From Cenococcum geophilum 1.58 (taxonomy: Eukaryota; Ascomycota; Dothideomycetes; Gloniales; Gloniaceae), in contig KV748197.1 of assembly GCA_001692895.1 (NCBI GenBank), forward strand, positions 2,175,813 to 2,239,812: 64,000 nt of DNA. Reading direction: 5' to 3'. The translations under genes and the position numbers were made by a program. Each line of letters starts with the position of its first letter. Within the stretch, counting starts at the first letter, position 1. Shown piece after piece: positions 23,937-55,600 of this stretch. The notes beneath the pieces were generated by a model. It was given only the letters and a program-made list of their open reading frames with translations, searched no databases and was not told the origin of the DNA.

Positions 23937-24115
23937 ATGCAGAGAGGCGCCGGTCTAAATAGGTCACTGATTAGCAGGAAGATTAACGGAGAACAGCTGC
24001 CCCCTTATCTCGACGTTGGGTTTATTGGTCGGTTTGAAGTCAACTGTGCCATACCACAACAAAACTTGCCCATGTATGTCGTCTTCCACATCGTATTCCG
24101 TAATTCGTTTGAGGT

Positions 24116-24291
24116 GGTTTTAATGAATATCTCGTATTGCACCTAGAATTGATTATTACAAAGATGAAGAAGGAAGAGAGGTTCTGAAAGGAACACTTGT
24201 TAACTAGATACACGGAGGCTGAAGCGATCTCGGGGCGATGTCGTAACGGGCGAGGGTGAGTTAGTTAGGGGAACGATGCACAGCATTAGGA
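24116..24291. repeat. Dispersed repeat, partial copy of the 32,124-32,421 repeat
   Basis: The stretch from AATGAATATCTCGTATTGCA to GGACCGTAATA matches the right half of the solo-LTR-like repeat at 32,124-32,421. The shared parts include AAGATGAAGAAGG, GGCGATG/GGCGATGCACAGCAT and the GGACCGTAA end. The left half is not found here. It lies just downstream of the membrane-protein pseudogene and shows no heavy RIP. Confidence 0.6.
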
Positions 24292-24311
24292 CCGTAATAT
24301 CGTTCAACCGC

Positions 24312-25670
24312 TTAGATATGAGGGAGTAAAGATGTCCACTGGACATCCTGAAAAACTTTGCTCGGTAATGAGGTCATGCTGCTTAGCGCAATAATAATTA
24401 GCCTAAGACGTGCCATGGCATACAAAGTTGCTGGGATTAAGAACATTAGGTAATGAGGCCACCGCATCTTGTACGCTCTCCCGGATTTAAGGCTAGGTTT
24501 TGTATACCCTTCTTGGTAGCATATCGCCATCTCAGTTGAGCCGTATACGCACAGTAAGCCCCAGACACTCAATCTGCTTGATCGCCAAAGTATTTTCTCC
24601 TATTTAGTGGCAAAGTTGAAGTTCTAGCCTAGTAAATGGATAGAAGCGAATATTGCGGTGCCAATGCCGAGTAAGGTATGCTGTTAAAGGTTGGCTTGTG
24701 GATTACGATTGTCGGGAATTCGCGATAGAGGTCGCGTTTGCAATCCTATGTAGCATATCCAGTATAGTGCGTGCCGACTCCATTTGCTTGACATGTACAC
24801 TTTCGGCTCGACGAAATCCAAGGGTGTGTCCAAGAAGGGGTCATTGGCGGCTTCTCCACCTTCGCGCAGGATGTTGACGGTTGTGGAGCTGGTGTAAAGG
24901 ATAGTTGGTGTGCGTACATCGAGTGGCTTGTACTACTAGAAGCCCAGCGTCGTTAATGATGAGCATACCAGTGCAACAGCCGATAATTCGAAAGGTGTCA
25001 CTGGAAGGTGTTTAATGGCACGACCGATCGTCTGCACTACGACCCACCCGGCCTGGAAGAAGGCTAGGCACTTGGTCACGCCATCCGCTTTACTCTTGTC
25101 CCAGATCTCCTCGCATGTGATGTTAGGAAGCTGCACATATTTCCTTTGGACGAGATAGTGAAGCTGTCTGGCGGTGAGAGGGAAAGGTTGAGAATGCGAA
25201 GGCTGGAGCACAAAGCCGCCACTGTCGGCGTAGAAGGCATGATATATAGTCCATTCCTCTTTCGTGCAGCCTGAGGCCCTGAAATTATCCACGGATTGCT
25301 TAGCGGATGCATACTAGCCGCAAGCAAATAGCATTGGCAATTCCGGTGCAAGTACCCCCAGTGTCAACCAGCGCAGCTTCCGCCAGAAAATGACCATATA
25401 AGTGTCGGTTCTCGTAGGTACGTTGAGGTGGAGCATCGTCCATAGGTAGAGGGACGAAGCCGAAACGCAGCTCCAAACGATGTCTAATGTCCCTCTTTGA
25501 TTTGGTGATGACTGCCAACTGAGTCTATTAGGAGGCACTGCGGTGGTTGAATTTGGTCGCAGAGACCTGCTGAAGTTATAATCCATGGGTGGCGGGACTT
25601 TTCTTGGAGGCACTATGAGAATAGTTGAGACTGTAAGCCGAAGTAGCCTGGAACTGTCAGCTATAAACAT
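24312..25670 (-). pseudogene. Fungal integral membrane protein pseudogene (five in-frame stops)
   Basis: One continuous minus-strand frame of 453 codons, with no frameshift. I recognise the family as a common Pezizomycotina multi-pass membrane protein of unknown function. The clues are RGTLDIVWSC and VFWRKLRW-like stretches near residues 65-105, HAFYADSGGFVLQP, EIWDKSKAD, then KPLDVRTP, TPLDFVEP, and the C-terminal EGYTKPSL...YKMRWPHYLMFLIPATLY ending in LLPHI. Five stops interrupt it: TAG at 25,314-25,316, TAG at 24,936-24,938, TAA at 24,684-24,686, TAG at 24,624-24,626 and TAG at 24,600-24,602. Each fits a CAG/CAA to TAG/TAA or TGG to TAG change, the transitions RIP makes. The start at 25,670 is the first ATG of the frame and is uncertain. 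The gene is probably dead, and the lack of indels suggests recent loss. Confidence 0.82.
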
Positions 25671-26865
25671 TCTATAACCGGAATTAGTAGAGCTCCAAAT
25701 CTTGTAAGGCTAAAGAACAGAGCTCGTTTTTGGATCACCCTTTCCAACGTCCGATGCGAGATAGGTGAGCACTTCTGTAAGGATACTAAACTTTTTATTT
25801 TTATTTTTATTTATTTTTATTTTTGGAGAATCTACTTATTGGTCAAACCGAGATTGAATGGTGGTGATAGACGGTTGGATATTGTTACAAAGGAAACGCC
25901 TCATGCAGACTATCCGTCGGCGGCGAAAAGAGGGTGTAAGAACAATGACAAAGTGGACACAATCTCCGAACAACCACAATGCAATTGGATTTTTTCTGTA
26001 GCACAGTGAGGCTACTGCCTGCGAGTCTCATGGGCGCGTAGTCTCGAAGGGTGGGCCGTCAATTAGGAGCCGAGACTTTTAGGCGCCACAGCTCTAAAGC
26101 TGCCAACAAGGCTGAGATATCAACGTCTGGGCGAAAAGGTTGCACCCGGTGTTTCGGCTCGATGTTTCAAAAGTGCTCTAAGCGTTTTAAATCTTATCGA
26201 TGCAGGAACGAGATACCATACCATTGGGTGATGTGTCCGCCAATTATCCGGGAGATAGTGCTTAGCGCGCGCGTACTGTACCATAGTAAGGCACTAGCTG
26301 AGTAAAGGGGCCTAAAAGTGGCGTGGTGGTAACATGTTGGCATTCGGAAGGCTATTTGTAATGGCGTTCTAGGCGAAGTTGGGAAGCATACAGATGTTAG
26401 GATCTAGGTTTATAAGAGTAATTGCTTTCGTCGTGCGCCTGAAGTTTTTCGCAAGGTGTTCGCATGCCTGTTGACCGGTATCCAAAGTTCTACTATTGAG
26501 GTAGAAATGTTGTGGTGAGGATGGAAGGGAAGGACGTGGGAAAGCCCCGTTTGATAGCGTTTGTTAGGGTGGGATTGACCGGGGTCCATCTCAGCGAGAC
26601 TGCTTAGCTACTGTAGCTGCACACACAGTAATAAGGGAGTTGAGGGCCCGGGGCGAAGGGCGCCTGGGGCGAAACTTCTTAAGTTCTCGTTTTTTTTTGG
26701 CGCTTGGGCCAGCTAAAGCACTTATGTAGTAGTAGCATTGCGGGATAAGGAGGCTGCCTCGTACCTCATTCGGTAGAAAGTAGCTCTGAGATAACCTCAA
26801 GTGCAGCCAAATATCTTCCACCTCCCTAGATTATCTAACTGCATACGTAAATCTGGGTTGTAGTG
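25671..26865. other. Intergenic stretch of the balanced island
   Basis: This lies between the 5' ends of two divergently placed genes, the membrane-protein pseudogene on minus and the mpaB-like gene on plus, so both promoters would be here. A low-complexity T/A run lies at 25,791-25,824. Open frames at 26,051-26,305 (plus) and 26,591-26,821 (minus) show no family I recognise and I do not call them genes. Confidence 0.5.
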
Positions 26866-26952
26866 ATGCTCAATATTATCGCAAGATGGCAAGCCTGCAT
26901 CGTGTCCGGCGTCCTCTTGTATCTCGCCCTGGTCTGATCTCAACGATATTGG

Positions 26953-27127
26953 TGTCGAACGGTCGCCTACTGCCTACCTGGTGGCAATTTGTCGTCGTCA
27001 GCTTTGTCGTCAGCCTGTGACTCATGTCTACCTTTTTGCCACCTACCTCATGTATATATAGTCACTTTTCTTCGTAGATCAATAATCACACAAGTCCTCA
27101 TTTTCGGACCTTATTTTCAGGTCGACA
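26953..27127 (+). repeat. 5' LTR of copia-like element
   Basis: It begins TGTCGAACGGTCGCC and ends TTTTCAGGTCGACA. A TATATATAG box near 27,053-27,061 may be the core promoter. It matches the 3' LTR at 172 of 175 positions by eye. Confidence 0.92.
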
Positions 27128-27138
27128 GTTATGAGCCC
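27128..27138 (+). promoter_or_regulatory. Primer-binding site for initiator tRNA-Met half molecule
   Basis: GTTATGAGCCC directly follows the 5' LTR. It is the complement of GGGCTCATAAC, the anticodon stem-loop of initiator tRNA-Met, with CAU as the anticodon. Priming from an internally cut initiator tRNA is known for copia and Ty5-type elements and supports placing this element with Ty1/copia. Confidence 0.8.
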
Positions 27139-27299
27139 GGGGTTGTTTCCTATGCACCAATTATTCTTTTAATCAGCTGTTCCTACAGGCTCGTATCCGG
27201 GTACTACTCTTATACTCGTGAATACTTCCAAATCAATACCAAACGACTTCCTTCGATTAGTTATAACAGACGATTCCCACAGTACCACAAGCTTGTAGA

Positions 27300-27540
27300 G
27301 GCTAGACATGAGGCAGGGACGAGCCAGATACGAGGCAAGGAGCCAGACACGAGGCAGGGCCCAGGGGCCAGACACGAGGCAGGTGCTAGATGGACGATTA
27401 CTAAACAGCAGGGAAGGATCTAGGCACCACTAGTACGACTTAGTTGGATGCTAGATGGACGATTGCTGAATAGTATGGTAGGATCTAGGCACTACTACGG
27501 CTTAGTTAGATACTAGATGGACAGTTACTAAATGACATTC
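27300..27540 (+). repeat. Degenerate tandem repeats inside the LTR element
   Basis: The first part (27,306-27,383) repeats a unit close to AGCCAGACACGAGGCAGG. The second part holds two and a half units of 62-65 bp, starting at 27,384, 27,449 and 27,511, each opening with CTAGATGGAC. The following 250 bp are shared with the TIR element at 51,493-53,146, which also carries minisatellites. Confidence 0.75.
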
Positions 27541-29446
27541 GATTGAGGAAACGAACACCAGAACGATTCGATCAGTCGATTGATCGAATCAAACCAGAGA
27601 CTTGATATCGGCCCGTTGCCGAATCAAATCAAACCAAACCAGAGCCTCGATATCGGCCCATTGCCGAATCAAATCGAATCAAATCAAATTAAGGCCTCCT
27701 AGGGAGGTACAACAGACGTCAATCGTTCGAGCGCACAGCCAGCGAATAAGGAACGATTCGGTTAATTGATCGATCGAATTAAGTTAAAAAGAATTATTTT
27801 GAACCACTTAAAAGAACCTACGTGTCTTAACTCCTTCTAAGCAAGCTTCTGCTATTGGTTCGCTTAGGTGCACGTGATTAAGTTAAATCTAACTTTTAGA
27901 CAACTGTCTACCCTGCAAGACTCTATTATCATTCTCATTAAAATATACAAATATCCAACACGCAGACGTTAGATACACGCGACAGAAGAAGCAGCAAGTA
28001 TTACTAACGCAATGGCTCCATCAGCTGTCCCGTTCGAGCCGTTCTACACGGCGTTAAAGAATCTACGTCACAAAGTACACAAACACACCACAACCTCAGT
28101 CAACCTCACCCTACCCATTCGACCGTCAGACCTCTCCACGGATTCGAACCCTTACCTAGATGGCGCCATAGGCATGCTAAGCGACTCGACAGCTTTCCTA
28201 TATAACAACGATGCTCCGTGGGCCGTAAGAGTAGCGGAGGTCAAAAGGGGTGTCGATTGAGTCGATGCCAAAGTGGACGAGGTCAAGACACAAGTTGATG
28301 AGGTCAAGACACAAGTTGATGAGGTCAAGACACAAGTTGATGAGGTTAAGACGCAAATAAGGTCACTGGATAAACGTCTTACAACACAGGTTAACGACGT
28401 TAAGTTACAAATAATGTTAATAGAAATGCAAATAAACAACGTTAGGATAAGCCTTTGTAACCAGACGGAAGGCCTTCGTAACCATACGGCAGTTCAGCTA
28501 AACTCCCTACGGAAGTGGCTCGACGATCTAATTGAACCTATCTCAGCGCCTATTTAGGATAAAGGCTCCTAGAAATATACCGTGGCTAAGGGCTTTCCTA
28601 GCAGAGTTAAGGACTTCTAGAAGCTTATTTTAGACCCTACTACCCTAATAAAGCTCGCAAAACATTACTTAGTATAAGGCTAGGACCGATGGAAGAGAGC
28701 TACTTTAAGGGATACTGATGTTACCTGCTACATGGACTTAAAGGATGCAGTTACCGCGCATCCCTACAAGTGCCTGATGGCTCTGGCTATGAAATGGGGC
28801 CTACAGTACAGCGTCCTTAAACGCCCAAGAACATCTCCATAACACTAAGGCCTAGGAAAACGCAAGGTAGAGACAGATAATGGGTTAAGACGAGTTAGGG
28901 CACGAGAGGACTAGGGTAGCAATTCTACAACAGGATCAGAATCAACCTCTTCACAAGATATTAACAACCAACGGTCTCAGCCGAGTAGAGTAGTATCGGT
29001 ACAGGTACGGGTACCTGCTCGTACAGAGGGACGATATGGGGATCTTCTAGAACGAATACTAGCGGCAGCTGATAGACAGGAAAGACAAAGAGATAAGGTT
29101 AAAGACCCTTATTATAGTGATCGGATTAAGTGGAGAATTAAGTCACCTATAACTACTGAACGACGGAGGAATCGTATGCGTTATTAGGACGGTCGATCGG
29201 TCCATACCTCTAAACTTAATGGACGACATCAGGATCACGACTCAAGGAAACGCAGCCCTAGGAAAGAGCCTAGTCGATCGGTCTCTAGCGATAACCCTTA
29301 TGGATTATATACTAGTGAGGAGTTTCGACTTCGTCGACCACTCTCTAGACTACTCTCTAGTGGGGAGCTTTAGCGGAGGAAAGGCGATGGAAATTGATGC
29401 AATCGTTAACTTAACACCACGCTAAGACTGGTGATACAGCTTCGAC

Positions 29447-30634
29447 CAGTGTGTCCAACAGTCAGCTAGCTGCGAGCTTCAGCTTTTATAGCTGACTGAC
29501 TGCGTCAATTGGACCGCTCGCTGTCCGCTGACTGTAAGGTAAGGTACGCTGACTGTCACGCTGTCAGCTAGCTGTCCCAATTAGGAAAGTGATATAGACT
29601 TTATGGTGTTTCGTTGCAGATTTTTAGCAGCACCTCTCTATATACAAATATTAACGTTGCCCGATTAAATCCAACCCCAATTTACCCAATATAGTATTCA
29701 AATATAGCTAAATTCGTCCTGCGCACCCATAGAGGTTTAAAAAGGTAGAACGTTTGGTGGTGACGTCAGTGGCAAGGTTAAAAAGAAGGCATTAGTAAGG
29801 GCTCCGGAGGCTTTATTTCTATATTAAATTCGATTAAATACGAAGCTCTATTAAATGTATCTTACCAAACTGGCTTTTCTGCCTCTATAAGTAAAGCACC
29901 TAGTCTTTAAGCCAGATGGCAGAGCTTACACAGCCAGAGCCTTTTTTGCCCAAAGAACCGTCCTAAAAAAGGTCTACTCTATGCTTCTATATTAGTAATA
30001 TAGGAGCTTTGCTTATTAATAACCCAGTATCCGTATTTGCCAGTAAGCTTACCGTATATTATTAAGTAGAGATTATCCTAATTAATAGGAAAGATACAGC
30101 TATAGTTCCGATTTGCTAGAGGAGGCTCTCGCGATGCGGAATTATCTTAATTGCCCAATTTGGTATTATCGTTAATTAAAAGGGGGGAGGAAGCAGTTAA
30201 TTTATAAATCCTATGCGGTGCGAAAGGAGTTAAATAAGGAAGAAGTAGAGGAGGAAGCAGACGAAGAAGCTCTACTGCCTAGCTAACACGTGAAATGTAA
30301 TATACGTTACATTTTATATAGGTAACAAAGTGGTAAGCTTTAGCATAGGTTTCGGCGCGCAATAGAGATATTAGGGAAAATGCTTTATTTACTACGGCTA
30401 AGCGAGAGATTCCCATTGCTTAGTGTATAATTAACCAACCAGATTATCCGAATATCCTTAACTTCTACTAAAGCTTCAACTTACCACCAAATCTTACCGC
30501 CAAGACAGCGAGCTGTCAGCTAGCTGCAGTCTTATAGCTGACTGACTGTCACAACTCAGTCAGCCAGCTGACTGCTTACATTAGCAGCCTCTTGGCAGCG
30601 AAGCTGACAGCGTCGCTGACTCTTGGACACACTG
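29447..30634. mobile_element. Non-autonomous hAT-like element (family 1), 1,188 bp
   Basis: The termini are CAGTGTGTCCAA and TTGGACACACTG, and both ends carry AGTCAGC-type subterminal repeats (CTGACTG and its complement many times). A perfect 8-bp target duplication, GCTTCGAC, lies at 29,439-29,446 and 30,635-30,642. Eight-base duplications and CAGTG-like ends are typical of hAT. No transposase frame is present, so it would depend on a transposase encoded elsewhere. It lies inside the copia-like element and is therefore the youngest of the three layers at this locus. Confidence 0.88.
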
Positions 30635-30671
30635 GCTTCGACCTGCGAGCAAGCTCAAAGCTGGGGGGGTG

Positions 30672-30846
30672 TGTTGAACGGTCGCCTACTGCCTACCTGG
30701 TGGCAATTTGTCGTCGTCAGCTTTGTCGTCAGCCTGTGACTTATGTCTACCTTTTTGCCACCTACCTCATGTATATATAGTCACTTTTCTTCGTAGATCA
30801 ATAATCACACGAGTCCTCATTTTCGGACCTTATTTTCAGGTCGACA
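30672..30846 (+). repeat. 3' LTR of copia-like element
   Basis: Begins TGTTGAACGGTCGCC and ends AGGTCGACA. The G-run at 30,662-30,669 just before it, within AAGCTGGGGGGGTG, is the polypurine tract. Confidence 0.92.
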
Positions 30847-32123
30847 ATTGGCGTAGAGATGCTGTGCGACACAAGTTTCCAACAAGAGCCTTATATCGCT
30901 CCATGACTCTAGATGATGCCTTTGCCATACAATCTCGACTAGCTGTGGTTGAATTTCCAACAATATTCTCTGGCTCTGTGTTCTTTGCGCTTTTTAAGGT
31001 ATGTCGCTAGTCTCATTGGCCTTTAGCGCAGGAGGCTGAATGCCAATAGACATATGGGATCCCCTTGATCTTACGCCTCCTTATCGCAACTGGACAACTT
31101 GTGAACGAGGATACTGCTTCCAAGCGAGCGGCGGACACTGGTGTTATTTTGACGGAAGTGGTCTTATACCACCCATCCTCGCCTCGAGCCATCGACGGTA
31201 TTGCTCGTATGAACTATCTCCATGGATGGTATCGAAAAAGCGGCAAAATTTCCGATGAAGACATGCTTTATACGCTCAGTCTCTTCGTGCTGGAGCCTAT
31301 TCGATGGACGCAACGTTTTGAGTGGCGGGAACCTGCAGAGGTCGAACGTTGTGCCATGGGAGCGTACTGGCGCTTCATGGGCGACGCCATAGAAATCCCT
31401 TACACTGTACTTAAATCTTATAAGTCTGGATGGACCGATGGACTGCACTTCCTTAATAAGCTTAAGGCGTGGAGTCTGGCCTACGAGGCCGAGCATATGC
31501 TACCTGCTGAGACGAACAAGGCAGTGGCTAAAGGAACAATTAATATTGCTCTGTATATTCTGCCCAAATGGCTCCATGCTGCAGGTCTTGATTTCGTGTC
31601 AAGTCTGCTCGAGCCAAGGTTACGAAAAGCGATGAAGTACTAGACCCCTATTGCTGCAGCCTACAGACATCTGCTGACGTCCACAGGTTCAATGATCCTT
31701 CATGGTTTGCGGTCTCAGCTGTCAACATAGTCATGAGCATACGGAAGATCCTTCTGCGGTACCTCTTCCTTCCTCGCCCATACTTTCTCCGGAAACGCTG
31801 GTTCAGCGAAGAAGCAAATGCAAACGGTCGCTTCAATGCTGACCATTACATCTCGCATCCCTGGTATATCAAACCGACTCTTTTTGAGAGATGGAGCCTG
31901 AAGTCTTTGCTTCTCCGACTCGCTGGTGGAGCAATTCCTGGAGATGATGGCGACAAATACATGCCGCAGGGTTATATTATCTCAGAAATCGGGCCCGAAG
32001 CTCTGCGCGGGAAAGGCGAATCAGACATGCAGGTCACACGGGAGAAACTAGTGAATGAGAAGAAGATTGGTTGCCCATTCAGTGGTTGGTAGATGAGAAC
32101 ACAGATGAGGATGTTGTTGTAAG

Positions 32124-32421
32124 TGTTACGGAATCGCTGCAAGCATCGTGATAAGCTCGATTCGCACTTACCAGCGCTTTTATCCTTGACCGCTGCTAAC
32201 GGCCACGTTTACGTTGTAGGGATACTTTCTAAGTGAGAGCGTTTCAATGAATATTTCGCATTGTACCTAAAATAATAATATTGCGAAGATAAAGAAGGAA
32301 AAGAGACACTCGTAAACTAAATACATGGAGCCGAGGCGGTCTCGGAGCGGTATCGAAACCAAGGGAATGCATAGCATCAAAACTAAATAAGGGGGCGATG
32401 CACAGCATCAGGACCGTAACA
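32124..32421. repeat. Solo-LTR-like repeat
   Basis: This 298-bp stretch begins TGTTACGGAATCG and ends AGGACCGTAACA, so its ends are inverted copies of each other as in LTRs. Its right half recurs at 24,116-24,291. The flanking pentamers (GTAAG and GCTTG) do not match, so a simple solo LTR with intact target duplication is not proven. It begins 31 bp after the stop codon of the mpaB-like gene and may overlap its 3' end. Confidence 0.55.
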
Positions 32422-33149
32422 GCTTGTACGAGTTACTCCAGCTTTTTACACCCCATACCAAGTAATCTGCTATTAAAAGTTTTACCTGATATTCTATTGC
32501 CTACTACTAGGACTAAGTCCTTTTAGTAAGTCTTTTATTACCAAGTATTCTGTTACTAAGGGGGGTTTTTTTTAAGTATTCTATTACTAACTATTCTACT
32601 ACTAACTGTTCTATTTATTTCACCTACTATATTTTACCGCTTTAACTATCTGCCTTTATTACGATATTTCGGTGATAACTGTAAGCCACGTACTAAACAA
32701 CCCAATTCGTTGTCCTAAGTCATGGGAAACAGTTTCGAACCTAGGCAGAACATCTCAGTTTATATACGGAGGATATTAACGATATTTCTCATACTAAGCG
32801 CTTCTACTCATTTATCGCCTGAACTGTTTCATGCCCCACGATATCACATTCATGTAGCATTGCGCTTCCAATTCTCTTCTCCATTTCTACAATATCGATG
32901 GCGATTAAGCTTACGGCTGAAACAGTTCGGTGACGCCAATCATGCCAATGAACCCTGGCGAAGGAAGAATCAGAGCATATATTTGCCATCGGCTCTGTCC
33001 AGTCTGCGTCTGCTTACCGATGCAAAAATGACGAAATCCGTGACGATGTGCTTTGTCATGTTGGTTCGAAGGCCTATTGCCTCCTTGAAATCCTCTTAGA
33101 AGAACTTGATGTGACAAGAAATCCGAGACGAAATGCCATAGTGTTGATT
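32422..33149. other. Intergenic stretch, no gene recognised
   Basis: The first 250 bp are T- and A-rich with repeats of TATTCTATTACTAA-like words. The rest has open frames on both strands (plus 32,722-33,099; minus 32,911-33,117) without a recognisable family. Three related words (GGAAACAGTTTCGAAC, GAACTGTTTCATG, CTGAAACAGTTCGG) form a loose inverted repeat at about 32,725-32,930. Confidence 0.45.
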
Positions 33150-33157
33150 CTGGAATT

Positions 33158-34168
33158 CAGTGCTTTTATCAGTATTCAATATCAGTATGAGGCCGTATTG
33201 ATATTGATATTGAATAGTAATTCAATACTGAAAAGATATTGAATATTGAATATAGTACAGTCTTAGCATAGTGCTTTAATTGAACGCTCCACGCCCCTGG
33301 GCTCTCGTAGAGCTTCAAAATAGCTGCTCTCTCGCGACTGCCCTCTCATCACTATCGTCACCTTCGTGATCCTTGGCGTGGTGTAGCAGATGTCGGCTGC
33401 TCTCTAGATTCTGCCAAGAGCTCAGAAGCCTCTCGTACTACATTCGTCGCCATAAGCCTCCCCCCGGCGGTAATATTACTTTGTAGCCAGCTCTTTAAGT
33501 ACTCCGTACGTTCAATATTCGTACTCCCCAATAATATGCGGTCCCATGAGATTGTTCACCGTGTACCTGAAAAGACTCGCTCAGCCTCTGCCGACATTGA
33601 CGGTATCAGTCATGGGTAGTCGGCTCTGCAAGTTGGATCAAGCCACTACTGCAGCGCTGTGCCAAGAAGAAGTAGCTAACCTGCGCCTTTTACGAGGCGA
33701 CTTAGGGGTGGTGTATTTGGTGTAAAGTCGCTCGACGCGTCGTCGTCGCCAAAGTGGGTAAACTAATCAGAATTAAGCTCAGAAATGGCAGAGGAGGAAG
33801 TATCATCGTCCTTAATTATAATGGTAGATAAGGGAGGCATGGCGTTAATTAAAGGGTGGGTGTATGGGGGGTGTAAAAATCGTCAAAATTAAATGATGTT
33901 GTGCGCGATGTCTTGTATGATCTAATTTAATGCTTGGTAATTTTTACTTTCTATAGGTTTACCTAATAAATCTAAAATGCGCACGTATTATAAAGAGGCC
34001 CGAGAGTCACTTACTAATACATCTGCCTTATTTTTACCACCTCAACTCTAAAAAATTCAATATTCAACATCTTTCAGTATTGAACATATCGTATTGATAT
34101 TGATATTGAACGTTCAATATTCAATATTCAATATCGCTAATCAATACCGAATACTGATAAAAGCACTG
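33158..34168. mobile_element. Non-autonomous hAT-like element (family 2), 1,011 bp
   Basis: The ends read CAGTGCTTTTATCAGTATTC on the left and its near-complement GATAAAAGCACTG on the right. A perfect 8-bp duplication, CTGGAATT, lies at 33,150-33,157 and 34,169-34,176. The subterminal 100 bp at both ends are dense in TTCAATATTGAATATTGAT-like words, which would form long hairpins. No transposase frame is seen. Its ends differ from those of the hAT-like element at 29,447, so two families are present. It lies between the mpaB-like locus and the 3' end of the leucine gene. Confidence 0.88.
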
Positions 34169-34445
34169 CTGGAATTTAAAGAGGCCGAGACGCCCTGGCT
34201 TGGTTCATTATTGGCAAAGTAAGGCTGAGGCCATTGCGGTTGAAGCTGAAAATTTTATATGCAAAGTGATGTATCAAGTGGTGAAATCATGGTTCGAGGG
34301 AGAATAGAATACTCACTGACGGTCCTTTTCGGGACAGACATAAGAGAACTGATGATGTGATGTCTGTTTATTGATGTCGACCAACTAACTAGCGGGGAGA
34401 CCACTTTTCTGGTGTTCGAACGACAGGAACCTGGCTCGATATCAA

Positions 34446-36713
34446 CTAACTGATCCCGAGGCATCCGTCTAGTCGGTCAGCTATCGAGCTTGCTGCACTA
34501 AGCAATGCCATGAGAGACGCTTGGACGACATCTTCGTGGATACCGACCCCCCACACCTTTTGTTGCTCATTGCCATTCGTGGTGCATTCTATGTAGGTTG
34601 CGGCTTTGACTTCCTTTCCTTCTCCAATAGCGTGTTCCTTGTAATCCGCAACATCGAGAACAATTCCTAGAGATAGGTTTAATGCATTCGCTAGAGAGGA
34701 GATAGCACCGTTTCCGACACCTGTAAGATGATGTTCTTGACCATTAATAGCAATAACGCCCTTGAACATACGTTTCGGGTTCTCTGATGACTGGGTCTGG
34801 CCAGGCATAGGTGCCGGCGATGTGGAGCGATCGGCCGAAATATCATAGTCGAGTAGCTCGAATCGCGGAGTCGATCGTAAATGATAACTGTCTTCAAAGA
34901 GATGGATAATCTCTGTCGGCTTCAACTCGCGTGAAAGACGATCAGCTTCTTTTTGAACTATTTTGGAGAAGGCTATTTGTAAACCACGTGGAAGGTCGAG
35001 ATGAAGATTGCGAAGGATAATCCAGGCAGCACCTCCCTTTCCAGATTGAGAGTTGACTCGAATAATCGCCTCATAGGTGCGCCCGATATCGAATGGGTCG
35101 AGCGGGAGGTATGGGAGTTGCCAAAGATCTTCGATTTTTGCCTTAGATAATTCACGAGCTGCGAATCCTTTCTTGATGGCGTCCTGATGCGACCCGCTGA
35201 AGGCGCAAACGACTAGTTGGCCGCCTGCCAGAACATCATTAGAAAGGACACAGATAAAAAGTTTAGCACCTCGAAGTGAAGGATCGCTTACCATAAGGGG
35301 CACGGGGATGCACCGGTATCTTATTGCTCTTCTCTACGAGATCGATGACTTTGTTGATTTCTGACTGAAGGCAAAGGTCAAATCAGTATACAGTTCTCCA
35401 GAGTGGATTTATCTCCAGTTTTACTTACGAAGTCGATCCCCGGGTGAATGCCCTGCGTATAAAGGTTTAGCGCAAGAACGACAAGATCCGCATTGCCCGT
35501 TCTCTCTCCGTTGCCAAACAGTGTGCCTTCAACGCGATCTGCCTAAGATGGGGGATAAAGTCAGTATCGCATTCAACAAGCCGGATTTGTACGCACCCCT
35601 GCCATTTGGGCTAGTTCAGCAGCTGCTACAGCACACCCACCTAAAGACAAGTGATAAGATTAGTATGCCGTGCTGTCCAGCGGTTATCACAGGGCTTACG
35701 ATCGTTGTGCGGGTGAAGAGACACACAAATCTTCTCCCGTTCCGAGATGTTCGTACAAAAGTACTCAATCTGGTCCGCATATATATTTGGAGGTCCGACC
35801 TCGACTGTCGCGGGAAGGTTGAAGATGATGCGATTCTGGATGCTGGGCTCCCAAGCGGCCTTGACAGCTTCGCACACCTCCAGAACGAAGTCCAGATCTA
35901 AATACAAGAGGTAGAGTCAGTACACAGTTATCCAGCGTGGGATTTTTCTTTGATTTACGTACTAGAATCCGAGAAGGTCTCAGGCGAGAATTCAAACGCC
36001 CACTCTGTGCCCGCGGAGGTTAAGTCATCCTTGGTCAAGCTGCGCACTAGCTTCGTGCATTCGACCGCCAACGCTTTCGTCTGCTCGTTAGTCATATTAA
36101 ACACGATCTGCTGAAAGCATGGCGACGTAGCAATATATAGATGGAGAATCGCTTTCTTCGAACCCTTAAGAGAGTTGACGGTACGACGAATAAGTTCAGG
36201 GCGACACGGCGTAAGAACTTGGATCCAAACGTCGTCAGGTATGGCACCTGGTGTTTCAACGAGCCGCCGCACGAAATTATAATCGGTGTCGCTCGCAGAT
36301 GGGAAGGAGACTTCGATTTCTTTGTAGCCCTGGTTTGGAATAGTTAATAGCCCGTCAGAGAGAGTTGCGGAACAGGTGAATATTTAGGGATCATGTTGAC
36401 CTACCAAATCTACCAGCATCCTAAAGTATGTCCATTTTTGGTCGCTGTCCATTGGATCTACCAGAGATTGGTTTCCCTGGATGATTATCAGCAAAGAACG
36501 TTTCGTTCCAGAAGGTCACTCGCATCGCGCAAATCAGTGGACAACCACCTCGGAGGCTTCTGTATTGACTTGGAAGGCCATTGGCGGTTTGGCAAGGAGA
36601 TGGGTGGAAACGGACGATATTTTGTGGAACTGAGGCAAAGGTAAAATCAGCATGACAGTGATATTCTGCAAGGTGGTGGTTTGGTTTACGTACGGGTCCT
36701 GGAGCATAGGCAT
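34446..36713 (-). CDS. leuA: 2-isopropylmalate synthase, nine exons, apparently intact
   Basis: It catalyses the first committed step of leucine synthesis: acetyl-CoA plus 2-oxoisovalerate gives 2-isopropylmalate. Exons on minus, in order: 36,713-36,694; 36,629-36,524; 36,476-36,405; 36,329-35,963; 35,897-35,700; 35,640-35,597; 35,542-35,429; 35,364-35,292; 35,224-34,446. They give 590 codons plus stop with no internal stop. Introns are 47-75 bp. Intron 2 (36,477-36,523) has a GC donor (GCGAGT) and AG acceptor; the others are GT..AG. The protein starts MPMLQDPSTKYRPF and has DLRDGNQ at 39-45 (catalytic and metal site), LHPHNDRG with metal-ligand histidines at 250 and 252, and GNGERTGN. The C-terminal regulatory domain, site of leucine feedback, spans about 453-590. 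The short N-terminus shows no clear mitochondrial presequence. It is the only clearly functional gene here. Confidence 0.95.
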
Positions 36714-36790
36714 CTTGGGGGTGAGATTGGAGAGAAATAAGACAAGAGGTGTGTTCGGAATAGTACATGAGTACCTGTGAGAGGAGTGAA

Positions 36791-36796
36791 GAGTCA
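36791..36796 (-). promoter_or_regulatory. Candidate GCN4/CPC1 site upstream of the leucine gene
   Basis: On the gene's strand this reads ATGACTC, about 80 bp before the start codon. TGACTC is the core bound by Gcn4-type activators of general amino acid control, which regulate leucine genes in fungi. A single short match, so modest weight. Confidence 0.45.
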
Positions 36797-36927
36797 TACG
36801 ATGGATTGTGGTGCCCGTGGTTGTTGTAGTGCGGAAATTCTTAGCTTGCCCCGCCTCGCCCCGCTCCGCCCGACAAACACCACCTTCTCCCCAGATATAT
36901 GACGAGCTTCAATCCATGATATCACTG

Positions 36928-36939
36928 CCGCAATTGCGG
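36928..36939. promoter_or_regulatory. Perfect CCG-N6-CGG palindrome upstream of the leucine gene
   Basis: CCGCAATTGCGG lies about 215 bp before the start codon. Everted CCG/CGG triplets are the type of site bound by Zn2Cys6 regulators. Leu3 prefers a four-base spacer, and here it is six, so the binding protein is open. Confidence 0.35.
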
Positions 36940-39430
36940 TGAAAGAAGCATGTATGGCAGTTCAAACGATAGTACCATCATATTATTTTGTTGTCGCTGA
37001 CATCCGGTTGAGTATTGTTGCAGTCTGGAGGTCAGCCCACCTTGACGAACGCGAAACTGTGACCGGTGTTGTGGTTACAGGTCGGCTAGACCACGCTAAA
37101 AGGTCGGCCTACCATAAGCGCTAATGCACAATCCCTGCACGGGGCAGCCTCAACTCAAAATACAAAGTCATGTGGTCAACTGAGCCTAAATCGCTTATCC
37201 TACCACANAACTTACCTCTTAATTAAAATTAACTATTATAAATAACTAGTTATAATATATTTAGAATATATTTAATAACGTGGTATACGGGGTTTTGCAC
37301 GAGCCCTGGGTTTTACACGATTTGAACATCAAAATTCGCCAAAATGCCGATTTGGTCGCAAATAACTAGTAAAAACCATCACAAATCACTGCATCGTTAG
37401 TAAGAAGTCTCGAAGCAATAAATATATATTTATAAGTCTATCTAAAGTCAATTTCTGGTGTTTTAGGGCTCAATTGGCTGGTGAATTTGGCCCCAATTAC
37501 TATTAATTAGCTCGGCCTCCTTATCTAAGGACTTATTGTCGGTTATATCGTTATCCTCCTGGTCTTCCTAGAGGTCATCTAGCAGATCCGGTAGATCCGA
37601 TGTCTTCTTAGCTGCATCTTAAAGTTGCTTAATAACGACTTAACCTGCGGCCCATGTAGAAGAAGACTCTTCTGCCTACTTCTGGAGCGTCTTAGCCGTT
37701 AATTAATGCGACTGCCATTGATTAGCCGCTCTAATAGCCGCTAATTAGGTCTTAGTAGTGTTCTTCTAGCAAGCAATCTTAGCGGCAATATCTAAGGCCT
37801 TCTTCGCCTTCTTCGCTACCTTTACCGCGCCCCCTGCCTCTCTATTATAAAGCGTAAATAGCTTCTTTGCATTAGCGGCAAGCCTTTAAGCTTCCTTCCT
37901 AGCCTCCACCTATTCTCTTTCAAGTGTAATTACTATTTAACGCTTTTCTGTAGCTCGTCTCTAGCAATCTTAGCTTCTTCTTTAGCCCTTACGGCAGCTT
38001 CCCTAGTAGCAGTAAGTTCCTAAGCCGCCGCTAGTATAAGAACTCTTTAGAGAGTACTATCCGCTTCCGCTTCTTCCTTTCCCGTCTTTTATTAGTATAT
38101 TACCGCAGCTCCTTATTTTCCACCTATAGCAACTTAAGATTATCCTCTAAAGATTATAGGTGCTATATTAGCGAATTAATATAGGCCTCTATCGCCTCTA
38201 GAGTTGTTTTTAGATAAAGGATTATTTACTAGTAACGAGATCTAGCATAGGCGCTATTAAGAGGGGGAGGATATAGAGGTGATAATAGAATCGTCGCCTT
38301 AGCTAAGTAAGGTAGAGTAGATGGCCGAGCAGAGCAGCGTGTAAGGGGTTAATTTAGGTTATAGGGGAGGAGGCCTACTACCTTAAAGGCGCTTTTTATT
38401 AAAGTTTTGGTATAAATTTGCGGCTAAATCTCGCTAAGAATCTTTATAAAATAGCCTTTATTTATACTAGTAATACTATAAGCTATATATTCGTTAACTT
38501 TAGTAGAGTATACGCGCTTAAGAGGTAAAAATATAATAAGATCTAGCGGCTAGAGTAGGTGCGTTAAATATAGAGGCAGGTATATAGGTATAATCTTATA
38601 GTTCTAGCAGTACTTAATAAAGTTAACGTTAATATAGCTGCTATAGCTATCTATTACTAGTAGTTAATAGCTAATTAATTTACTATTTCTTTCTTCTTCT
38701 ACTGCCTTTGCTACTGCCCTCTCCTATACCTTAGTTCGCTAGGTATAGTACTTAAAGTACCTTAGCCACTTTAGTCTGATTTCTTAATTTAACCAGCCGT
38801 TCTTACTAAGGCCAATTAAACAGTCGCCAAGAGCTTCGCGAGTATTCTCCTATATTCCCTTACTATATATATAGCCTTTAAAGACAATAAAAGGTGGTAT
38901 AGTTATCCCCCCTATGCCAATACAATTAATCTATAAGACCCACTCCATAAAGCCGTTAACGGTCTTAAAATTAATGGCCTTACCTTATAATATTATAACC
39001 TTGGCGCTATATATATAGCCTATTAAGGTGCCAGTCTTATCCATATTCTAGGTATTATTATCTTTAATATTATACTAGGTTTTAGCATTAGAGTAGTTAG
39101 TAAAGAACTTCCTAATAAGGGCGGGACTATTATTAGCAATAGCTCGTTCTTGGTTAATTAACCATATATAGTAGATTTAAAGCTTATCTTATTATTTTAG
39201 AAAGTAACTAACCTAGCTCTTACCTAGTGGTTAAATCTTAAAGTACTAAGGGAGGTAGGAGTGTTCGCGGTATAGGATAATAGCGGCTATTATCCGGATT
39301 ATATAGATTTGATATAGAAATTTAGCATTAGTAAGATATATATAGTGTTAAATAATTGCAGCTTCGCTAGCTGGTGTAATATAATATTAGTTAACGTAAG
39401 TAACTTAATAAGGTTAGTGTTTACCTTAGA

Positions 39431-51850: not shown

Positions 51851-52080
51851 TGCCTGTCCTNCCTGTCCTGCCTGTCCTGCCTGTCCTACCTGTCCTACCT
51901 GTCCTATCTATCCTACCTGTCCTACCTATCCTACCTGTCCTACCTGTCCTACCTGTCCTACCTGTCCTACCTGTCCTACCTGTCCTACCTGTCCTACCTG
52001 TCCTACCTGTCCTACCTGTCCTACCTGTCCTACCTGTCCTACCTGTCCTACCTGTCCTACCTGTCTTACCTGTCCTACCG
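51851..52080 (+). repeat. 10-bp minisatellite, about 23 units
   Basis: The unit CCTACCTGTC is repeated head to tail with few changes. It produces artificial Cys-Pro-Thr or Val-Leu-Pro frames that are not genes. One N lies at 51,861. Confidence 0.95.
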
Positions 52081-52420
52081 TCTGACCGTCCTACTTGTTT
52101 GTGCCTACCTGTCTGTGCCTGCCGGTCGTGCCTACTTGTCTATGCCTACCTGTCTGTATCTGTAATTCGGGGGAGAGGTCGGCCCGATCGAAGGCTCTGC
52201 TTGATTTGATTGCGATTAATTATATTGATTCGAATCGTTCTCTCTGGGCGTTCGCTGGCTATACGTTTGAACGGTGGTTGTCTGGGGTGCCTCCCTAAGA
52301 GGCCTNGATTCGATTTGATTTGGTAATGGGATGATATCGAGGCTCTAGTTCGATTCGATCGATCGATTGAATTGATCGTGGTGTTTGCTAGCTGGTCGTT
52401 TAAACGATTATCGTCTGGCT

Positions 52421-52640
52421 CTGGCGGCGGTCGTTTGGTTCTGGCGACGGTCGTTTGGTTCTGGCGACGGTCGTTTGGTTCTGGCGACGGTCGTTTGGTT
52501 CTGGCGACGGTCGTCTGGTTCTGGCGACGGTCGTCTGGTTCTGGCGGCGGTCGTCTGGTTCTGGCGACGGTCGTCTGGTTCTGGCGACGGTCGTCTGGTT
52601 CTGGCGACGGTCGTCTGGTTCTGGCGACGGTTGTCTGGTT
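52421..52640 (+). repeat. 20-bp minisatellite, 11 exact-length units
   Basis: The unit CTGGCGACGGTCGTCTGGTT (T for C at position 15 in the first units) runs without spacers or length change. Open frames in all directions through it are by-products. Confidence 0.96.
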
Positions 52641-55600
52641 CTGGTCACAGTCCTCTAGCTACCGTTCTGGTGCCTCCCTAAGTAGGGAGGATGTAAGGAA
52701 GGAAGGAAGGGTAAAGGTGGCATTTAGGTGTACAAGGGGTATGCAAAGGTACGTGTAGAGGCTGTCGGGAATATAGCGGGGACCCGATGGTACTTCGGAC
52801 GATTTAGATGATAAGGAAAATTAAAGTCCTGCTAGGAGCCTGCTAGGAAGCCTGCTAGGAGCCTGCCCGGAGGCCTTTAGGATTTTAATACCCTAATAGC
52901 AATAAATATAATAATAGTAATAATATTTATTTTATAGCTATAAGCTAGCATAGTGCTAGCGTATAGCTCTAAGGCTTAGCTAATATGGCTAAAAGCTAGC
53001 CCTAGGCTAGGGGGGGTCAGCTAATATGGCTAAAAGCTGGCCCCGGGCTAGGGGGGGTTGGCTAATATGGCGGAAAGCTAGCCCCGGGCCCTAAAAACAC
53101 TTTTAGCGAAACCAAATTTCCTGCGCCACTTCCCGTTTTCCTGACGTAGTAGTTTCCAGCTTCTGGTACTCTATAAAGAGATTTTATAACCCATAAAATT
53201 ATTCCTAGTTATAGGTTAAGCTTACGGGGTAGTTATATAAAGATATCCCTACTTAGGTAGATATTAAACTATACGTAGGCTTATAAGATATCCCGTAAGT
53301 ATAGGGCTATGGGTTTAGTTTACTGTAGTCCCGGCGCAAGTATAAGTATAATTTATTAGCTAACTCGTTAAATTATAGGCGATTGTGTAAAGACTAAGTC
53401 CTTTCCCTTATCGTTATAAGCTTATATAATAAGCCTTAATTTCTTAAAGGCTTTATTAGTACTAGGGTGCTTAATCTTATTAATAAAGCGTAAGTTAAAT
53501 ATACGGACGCCTTGCGGAACGTCTTTCTCTATTATAACCGCAAAGACACCCTTTTTAAGTAGTCCATTAATCTCTTTACGTCGTAAGTCCGTAAACGGGG
53601 TTTCCTATACTAGAACTGATATATCTATAGGCGGAGATTGCCTTACGGATATTCCTATGGAGGTTAGGTAATTTTTTATTACGGTATTCTTAGTTATGGG
53701 GTGCTTTTAGGGGCGTCCTCAACCACGCTTTACAGTAGGTTTAGTAGGTTTAGTGGGTTTCTAGGGGACTTTTAAGGTAGGCAAGGGTGCTTCTAGTTTG
53801 TCTAATTCGGCGGATGCTTTTAGTTCGTCTAGTTCAACGGGTGCTTCCAGTTCGTCTAGTTCGACGGGTGCTTCCAGTTCGTCTAGTTTGACGTCATAGG
53901 TATTTTCGGGCCGAAAGTAGGGTTTTACGGACGTGCTTCTAAAGCTGGTTGGCTTACTAGGAAGCTATACGCAGCACGTCTCGTTTTCTATGGCTAGTAG
54001 ACAATAAGGTCCATTCTAACTGCCGCTTTTATGCTATACGAGGACTTTAGAGTTAAGCGAGAGGTCGTGTACTAGGGTTGTATTAGATCCGTTGCGGTGG
54101 TGCAGGGCGTTATTAATAGCTTACTTGGCCCGTAGCTTAACTATTTTAGTTATTGCCTTCCGTATTGCAGCTGCTTATTTTGTAATAGACGGGGCAGGAG
54201 GGCCTAGGTTGCTTATCCTTAGGTAGGCTCCGTAAACCAAGAGGGTGGGTACTAGTCCGTTAGGGCTAGTGGTGTTATTAACAGCTTTTACGGCTATCTG
54301 TAAAGCTAGTTCCTTTTAAATGTCCTTATACTTATCCGTAATAATCTAGTAAGCTTTCCGTAAGGCTAGGTAAGCTCGCTTAATAAGCCTAACGGACTAG
54401 TACGCCTTAACTAAAACAGCTTTTGTTAATATAGCTATAGCCGTAGTATACTGCTAAAATTCCTTATTAATAAAGTTCCTACTGGCGTCGTGGGTAATAT
54501 ACTACGGAGGTCCAGTATATATTGATCTAGCAGGTCCGTAAAATATCCTAAGTATATTTTATAGATATATTTTACAACTAACGGGCGGCTTAATAGCGGG
54601 TTACCTCGTCGATTATATATAATACTAGACTGCCGTTAATGTATATAATGTCCACGTATACTAAGTAGTTAAAGTTAAGGTCCTTATAAAGGGTAAACTT
54701 AAATCGGCCTAGGGAACGTCCGTATTTCTAGCAGAAGAAGCAGTATTTAGTTAAGTAGTTAATTGCCTTCCTATTAACGTCGTTATGTCTAGAGCGTTTA
54801 AGGACTCTATATAGCTTTTCGGCTAACAGGTAGCCAAAACGGCGGTATAGGCGGTAGATCTTAGTACTGGTAAGGTAGCATAGGTTATAGTTAAAAGATT
54901 CCTAAATATAGGTCTATAAAGTCTCTCCCTATATAAGGAACGGGTGTCCAAATCGTTGTATAATTGGTAGGGTAATATACTTACTTTCTAGGGTAGTTAC
55001 GGGGCCAATTAGGGTATCCGTAACATTATTGTAGTACACCTATAACCTATCTATATCTGCAAGACAGAGTAGGAAGGGGGTGTCCACTTTTACTACGTGG
55101 AAGTTAACTAGGCCAATTAGAGTCTTAACTTTAACTAATCTAATTAATGCGGTTAAGCCGATGCCGAATTAGACGTTTACGGCCCCAGTTTGCGTAATAT
55201 TAATATCCGTATTATTATTTGTGGTGGTCCTATATATAAGGTATTATCCATAGCCTGCGGTAGACTTCTTAGAGGCACCTATGTCGATTATAACACCGTA
55301 GAATTCCTTAGGGGTATAGCGTTCTATGGTAATATATGCAAATAGGTCCTGCTTATAATCTATAATATTTATAACAGGGGTGCTTACGGGATGGTTTTTG
55401 GGCGTAAGTAAGTGTGTAAAGGAGCGGTCGGCTAATACGGTTATAATATTAAAGGCTTAGCTGTCCATAAAAGGTCTAAAAGTGGTTAGGAACGTCTCTA
55501 AGGTCTCTTATTCCTAAGCGTCTAAGTTAAAGTCAATTATAAGGGCTTCTATTAACTTATTAGGGGGCTTTTCTACTTTCTCTTCTTCGTATTCCAAAAT

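Follow-up and report, generated by a model that had tools for sequence, protein, structure and literature searches.

A hAT-type element nested in a short LTR retrotransposon within an mpaB-like gene of Cenococcum geophilum

What has interrupted an mpaB-like gene in the genome of the ascomycete Cenococcum geophilum 1.58, in which order did the inserted pieces arrive, and was the insertion the cause of the loss of the gene? The locus lies in a stretch of 64,000 nucleotides (C22:2175813-2239812, hereafter the window) of a genome of 177,193,698 bases in 162 contigs, named here by the letter C and a number. It is very probably a nested double insertion, in which a long terminal repeat (LTR) element, presumably mobilised in trans, and then a hAT-type element, interrupted a single-copy mpaB/Lcp-type oxygenase gene; "oxygenase" is used here as the Pfam family name for PF09995.

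The nest and its host gene

The LTR element spans 26953-30846 and lies within the first coding exon of the gene. The parts of the locus are the following, in window coordinates:

26866..26952, plus strand: probable first part of exon 1, with ATG 26866, a hydrophobic stretch, a TGA and five codons ending in TGG 26950-26952
26935..26937, plus strand: in-frame stop TGA upstream of the insertion; the open frame begins at 26938
26948..26952: target-site duplication ATTGG, 5' copy
26953..27127, plus strand: 5' LTR, 175 bp
27128..27140, plus strand: primer-binding site GTTATGAGCCCGG, complement of 13 nt in a tRNA-Met gene (cat)
27128..29438, plus strand: interior of the LTR element ahead of the hAT-type element, with fragments of open reading frames (ORFs)
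29439..29446: target-site duplication GCTTCGAC, left copy
29447..30634: non-autonomous hAT-type element, 1188 bp, with terminal inverted repeats CAGTGTGTCCAA[C/G]AGTCAGC
30635..30642: target-site duplication GCTTCGAC, right copy
30643..30671, plus strand: end of the LTR-element interior, with a G-run (polypurine-tract-like) preceding the 3' LTR
30672..30846, plus strand: 3' LTR, 175 bp, with a TATA-like TATATATA at 30772-30779
30847..30851: target-site duplication ATTGG, 3' copy
30852..31000, plus strand: remainder of exon 1
31001..31049, plus strand: intron 1 (GTATGT...ATAG), by inspection
31050..31635, plus strand: exon 2, counterpart of most of the MPAB_Lcp_cat match of the paralogue
31636..31685, plus strand: intron 2 (GTACTA...CTGAC...CACAG), by inspection
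31686..32092, plus strand: exon 3, with the stop TAG 32090-32092

Both LTRs start with TGT and end with ACA and differ at 3 of 175 bp, and this near-identical TG...CA pair together with the short flanking direct duplication identifies an LTR retrotransposon. The hAT-type element has the ends CAGTGTGTCCAA...TTGGACACACTG, and its terminal inverted repeats are 21-nt arms that are 95% complementary, one outer base per arm belonging to the duplication. The 8-bp GCTTCGAC is found on the plus strand of the window at its two flanks only. In all three related LTR elements examined (on C14, C90 and C58) the corresponding site is empty and uninterrupted, with a single GCTTTAAC or GCTTTGAC (GCTTYRAC-like); the hAT-type element inserted into the LTR element and not the reverse. 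A previous reading made from the letters alone (the sequence-only reading) had described a three-layer nest with readable boundaries, a gene split directly after its TGG codon, an LTR element with the duplication ATTGG and three differences between its LTRs, and a hAT-like element inside it. The LTR pair, the hAT-type element and both duplications are, almost to the letter, as it described them, and the frame of the gene resumes at 30852.

Both inserted layers come from dispersed families, and the genome is highly repetitive (about 81% for C. geophilum according to PMC11799279), so that an assembly artefact joining repeats has to be considered. Against it stand two independent exact duplication pairs, of 5 and 8 bp, and the flanks of the nest, which at the DNA level each match only themselves genome-wide (the 5' flank, 26600-26952, gave one match); an artefact is thus extremely improbable.

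The exons after the split are open over 49 + 195 + 134 codons (378), as the sequence-only reading had held, with two short introns placed by inspection, and the chance of a random frame being open that long at the local base composition is p ~8e-9. Genome protein searches listed only the split gene and an intact paralogue at C9:1996025-1997724, which has seven exons, 417 residues and six introns of 64-92 nt (splice sites by inspection). Each piece of the window gene was aligned separately to the paralogue protein, with 300 shuffles per piece. The scores were 65 for 30852-30998, 496 for 31050-31634 and 210 for 31688-32089, none of which was reached by any of the 300 shuffles, and exon 2 aligned to paralogue residues 89-283. 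Intron 1 has a paralogue intron at the same codon, with the phase off by one base, and intron 2 has one that matches in place and phase. The exon 2 frame ends at a TAG (31641-31643); taking it for a second stop was rejected, as it lies in this latter intron.

The assignment of the gene as mpaB-like also held, at a strength set by the paralogue: its sole Pfam match is PF09995 (MPAB_Lcp_cat) at residues 113-290, with E 0.0023 and a score of 18.5 bits, the cut-off being 23. Since this is below the cut-off and the window exons are unmatched, the gene is mpaB-like and not a family member by the curated threshold. Sequence searches of the PDB with exon 2 and the paralogue gave no matches, and none of 57 pattern stretches in bacterial and archaeal genomes was confirmed as an exon 2 relative in a search that reaches close relatives only. 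A predicted structure of exon 2 from a five-row alignment gave a helical model with a mean predicted local distance difference test score (pLDDT) of 46, too poor to use.

Relatives of the two elements in the genome

The LTR family is dispersed, with at least 40 genome matches (40 of 206 candidates scored), and its interior gave at least 80 (40 of 375 candidates scored), own copies included in both counts. Relatives on C14 and C58 measure 2.7 kb and 2.6 kb from LTR to LTR; the C14 copy is flanked by a 5-bp duplication of its own, CGAAT. Without the hAT-type element the interior of the window element measures 2340 bp, which leaves no room for a complete pol. Of four plus-strand ORFs scanned in it, two had no Pfam match and two had, among the matches listed, only weak ones below the cut-offs, and a 173-residue ORF of the C58 copy gave weak matches of coiled-coil type only. 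No reverse transcriptase or integrase was found by Pfam in these five ORFs. One interior ORF fragment is coiled-coil-like and holds a 21-bp repeat (28271-28356). Elsewhere in the window, tandem arrays at 51853-52644 consist of a 9-bp unit in 27.6 copies and a 20-bp unit in 11.7 copies, and 52251-52370 matches the interior repeats of the LTR element at 74-81%.

The complement of the primer-binding site GTTATGAGCCCGG recurs without a difference at positions 26-38 of a gene for tRNA-Met (anticodon cat) that ARAGORN locates on C3; the tRNA search pattern matched one further place in the genome, where ARAGORN detected none. The match is to the anticodon arm of the tRNA and not to its 3' end. ARAGORN gives tRNA-Met only, and from the sequence of the anticodon arm we take it to be the initiator. 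A group of Copia-type elements is described in PMC8515867 as priming from a short segment of initiator tRNA-Met, and half-tRNA priming in Drosophila copia is reported in PMC5371799.

ACA followed directly by the primer site was found at 164 genomic places, that of the window included (81 forward, 83 reverse), and the reversed-pattern control at none. Primer sites were compared with PF07727 matches by eye and non-exhaustively, 100 primer-site places against 150 scored of 910 PF07727 candidates. Among the matches listed, two primer sites (C6:1527653 and C3:2307014) are followed 3.3-3.4 kb downstream, on their own strand, by a reverse transcriptase. At C6:1527653 the PF07727 match is within a 1560-residue open frame without a stop, about 3.3 kb downstream of the primer site, and this Copia stretch is bounded by 230-bp repeats that are 99.6% identical. 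The reverse-transcriptase match at C3:2307014 contains stops. A primer-site locus on C1 was rejected as a pol-bearing relative, the DNA beyond the site being AT-rich (33% G+C) with no ORF above 80 residues. As a pol gene (integrase and RVT_2) was not found in the scanned ORFs of the window element, it is not assigned to Copia proper.

Five further loci (C6:1559391, C7, C8, C13 and C19) share the 5' leader and have LTR pairs of 1.2-2.6 kb end to end, with LTRs that partly resemble those of the window, chiefly at positions 88-153. The pairs within C6:1557500-1567000 and C7:2747500-2755500 are about 1.2 kb end to end, with LTRs of about 195 bp that are 96% alike, and agree with the window element in the primer site, in some of the 5' leader and over LTR positions 91-153. 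On this likeness of sequence these two pairs are a related, even shorter, putatively non-autonomous family.

The hAT family is represented by at least 49 genome matches, own copies included (40 of 401 candidates scored). Closest to the window copy among those scored is one on C95, also of 1188 bp, which differs at 29 positions (28 of them transitions) and has its own 8-bp duplication; exact 8-bp duplications flank three of the five other copies examined (C95, C1 and C28). No ORF of 80 residues or more lies wholly within the 1188-bp copy. Longer relatives exist: the C36 copy has both ends in common with the window copy and about 2.0 kb extra in the middle, and the C94 copy matches it at the left end and again over the middle-right part, with about 2.5 kb between these, its right end being beyond the stretch compared. 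In both, the extra DNA follows approximately position 443 of the window element. The shape of these copies suggests that the 1188-bp form arose by internal deletion, and the C36 and C94 copies are candidates for its source forms. By eye, some minus-strand pieces of the longer relatives are transposase-like, with no Pfam match.

The course of events that best explains the locus begins with a short non-autonomous LTR retrotransposon, probably mobilised by Ty1/Copia-type machinery acting in trans from within this genome, integrating at ATTGG in the first coding exon of the single-copy mpaB/Lcp-type gene. A non-autonomous hAT-type element, with its transposase supplied from elsewhere, then inserted at GCTTCGAC, a short way ahead of the 3' LTR, most likely after the LTR element had landed at the locus. 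The gene can no longer make its full-length product, with a presumed loss of function and a presumed N-terminal coding piece cut off from the rest.

Continuity, cause and age of the interruption

Several observations weigh against this account. On the gene side, neither of the pieces ahead of the split gives a significant alignment to the paralogue: 26866-26934 (23 residues) scores 20, which 195 of 300 shuffles reach, and 26938-26952 (5 residues) scores 17, reached by 219 of 300. The TGA at 26935-26937 lies upstream of the insertion and allows an earlier death of the gene. The window exons themselves are without any Pfam match, and a genome scan with PF09995 gives four places, neither the split gene nor the C9 paralogue being among them. 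On the element side, two of the five other hAT copies examined (C19 and C15) are without an exact 8-bp duplication, and no hAT transposase domain was found, six frame pieces from three longer relatives giving no Pfam match.

The claim of one protein across the split is accordingly sustained in part: the alignment after 30852 is strong, and the 23- and 5-residue pieces before the split are not significant. What ties these upstream pieces to the gene is the duplication together with the frame. The missing alignments and the stop codon within could mean that the sequence before 26952 is outside the gene, the coding region being 5'-truncated or having a different start, for example one with a short intron ending at CGTAG behind the split. 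The ATTGG duplication, however, shows that 26952 and 30852 were adjacent before the insertion, and the frame of exon 1 runs upstream of the split through five codons; past the TGA the same frame has an ATG, and with it a hydrophobic stretch where the paralogue has one too (hydropathy 1.77 over 19 residues here and 1.60 within the first 50 of the paralogue). An in-frame intron would moreover be only about 39 nt by inspection, against 64-92 nt in the paralogue. That the upstream sequence is no part of the gene is consequently unlikely.

The sequence-only reading took the insertion as the cause of the gene loss and overlooked the in-frame TGA, and on this point it went too far. The TGA may predate or postdate the LTR insertion. 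If the gene had already died through this TGA or through lost expression, the LTR element would have landed in a young pseudogene, with the same anatomy and only the cause contested. The reading frame of the TGA is the one that continues across the insertion site, and the C9 paralogue could have made the split copy dispensable; on the other hand, the 378 codons without a stop mean that such a pseudogene would have been young, and the TGA-bearing region is itself not proven to be coding. Prior death of the gene is a serious possibility, somewhat less likely than not.

The dating of the loss from the LTRs was likewise too strong: a recent loss is plausible. All three differences between the window LTRs are C:G-to-T:A. 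At the sites concerned (4, 71 and 140), six other LTR rows from five elements have C in 6/6, C in 5/6 and G in 6/6, so each difference reads as a transition, C to T or G to A, in one LTR of the pair. Over three LTR pairs (3/175 in the window, and 4/175 and 16/169 in C14 and C58) all 23 differences are transitions, which look like hypermutation or deamination and not like a clock, and an estimate in years was for this reason rejected. From the few LTR differences and the open exons the insertion is likely to be young.

In the AT-rich flanks of the window (1-22 kb, 40-50 kb and 54-64 kb) G+C is 33-36%, TpA/ApT 1.65-1.79 and (CpA+TpG)/(ApC+GpT) 0.38-0.51, presumably a repeat-induced-mutation-like (RIP-like) signature. 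G+C is 41-50% at 24-37.5 kb, and with the inserted elements left out the indices of 24000-37500 are 0.70-1.01 and 1.11-1.42; those of the LTR element are intermediate (1.25 and 0.82). This segment appears as a gene-bearing island amid AT-rich flanks, with the nest inside it. It also has 2-isopropylmalate-synthase-like gene fragments on the minus strand (34446-36383), about 2.4 kb past the 3' end of the split gene, with IPMS_D2 and LeuA_dimer at 34446-35333 and HMGL-like at 35955-36383.

The open exons also bear on whether the gene might still partly work, with a transcript promoted by the 3' LTR and a shortened protein from ATG 30903 that keeps exon 2, presumed catalytic, and loses the hydrophobic N-terminus. 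The TATA-like box at 30772-30779 and the frames open after 30903 fit such a protein, as does exon 2, whose counterpart in the paralogue overlaps the PF09995 match. The out-of-frame ATG 30859, which would normally hinder initiation, does not, and a shortened product is quite improbable. By eye, the frame of this ATG, 3' of the TATA-like box, is short and its TGA overlaps the in-frame ATG 30903 (ATGA). The more specific proposal of a re-wired gene, in which this isolate alone would make an oxygenase without its membrane-anchor-like N-terminus from the 3' LTR promoter and other isolates would keep the anchored form, is if anything a shade more improbable still.

The anatomy of the nested insertion is real and unusually clean, and insertions of this sort are well known and ordinary in an element-rich genome. 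A literature search on nested LTR/hAT disruption found no such locus named in titles and the openings of abstracts, which is not proof of absence. With exact boundaries and unique flanks the locus is chiefly of use as a clean marker, scorable as present or absent in population data; resequencing of 16 European and 304 worldwide C. geophilum isolates is reported in PMC11799279. Other isolates may, as the sequence-only reading proposed, keep the gene whole. A polymorphic insertion would be a worked example of transposon-caused gene loss in a symbiotic fungus; otherwise the locus is one among the many events of this sort to be expected in a highly repetitive genome.

Comparison with known systems

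MpaB of P. roqueforti, a protein of the mycophenolic acid cluster whose function is left open in PMC4708987, has 427 residues according to the same source, close to the 417 of the paralogue. There is no sign here of the same substrate or cluster. The inner element resembles the hAT superfamily in its 8-bp duplication, its short terminal inverted repeats starting with CAGTG and its many copies; it differs in being only 1188 bp without a transposase, the pieces of the longer relatives having no Pfam match either.

The outer element is like the half-tRNA Ty1/Copia elements (Hemivirus type, Drosophila copia) in its 5-bp duplication and short TG...CA LTRs, and in a primer site that adjoins the LTR, is complementary to the anticodon arm of tRNA-Met and is common to the open-frame Copia on C6. 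It is unlike them in that no reverse transcriptase or integrase was found and in that its 2340-bp interior is shorter than the 1560-codon frame of the C6 element; the similarity between the window LTR and the LTR of the C6 Copia consists of chance-length words only. TRIM, LARD and TR-GAG are names of non-autonomous LTR-element types. An assignment to TR-GAG is not supported, as the window element has no specific Pfam gag match. The relatives on C14 and C58, with their 2.6-2.7 kb, short LTRs and small ORF fragments, are like these types, and we infer that the window LTR element is a short, non-autonomous passenger, Copia-dependent in mechanism.

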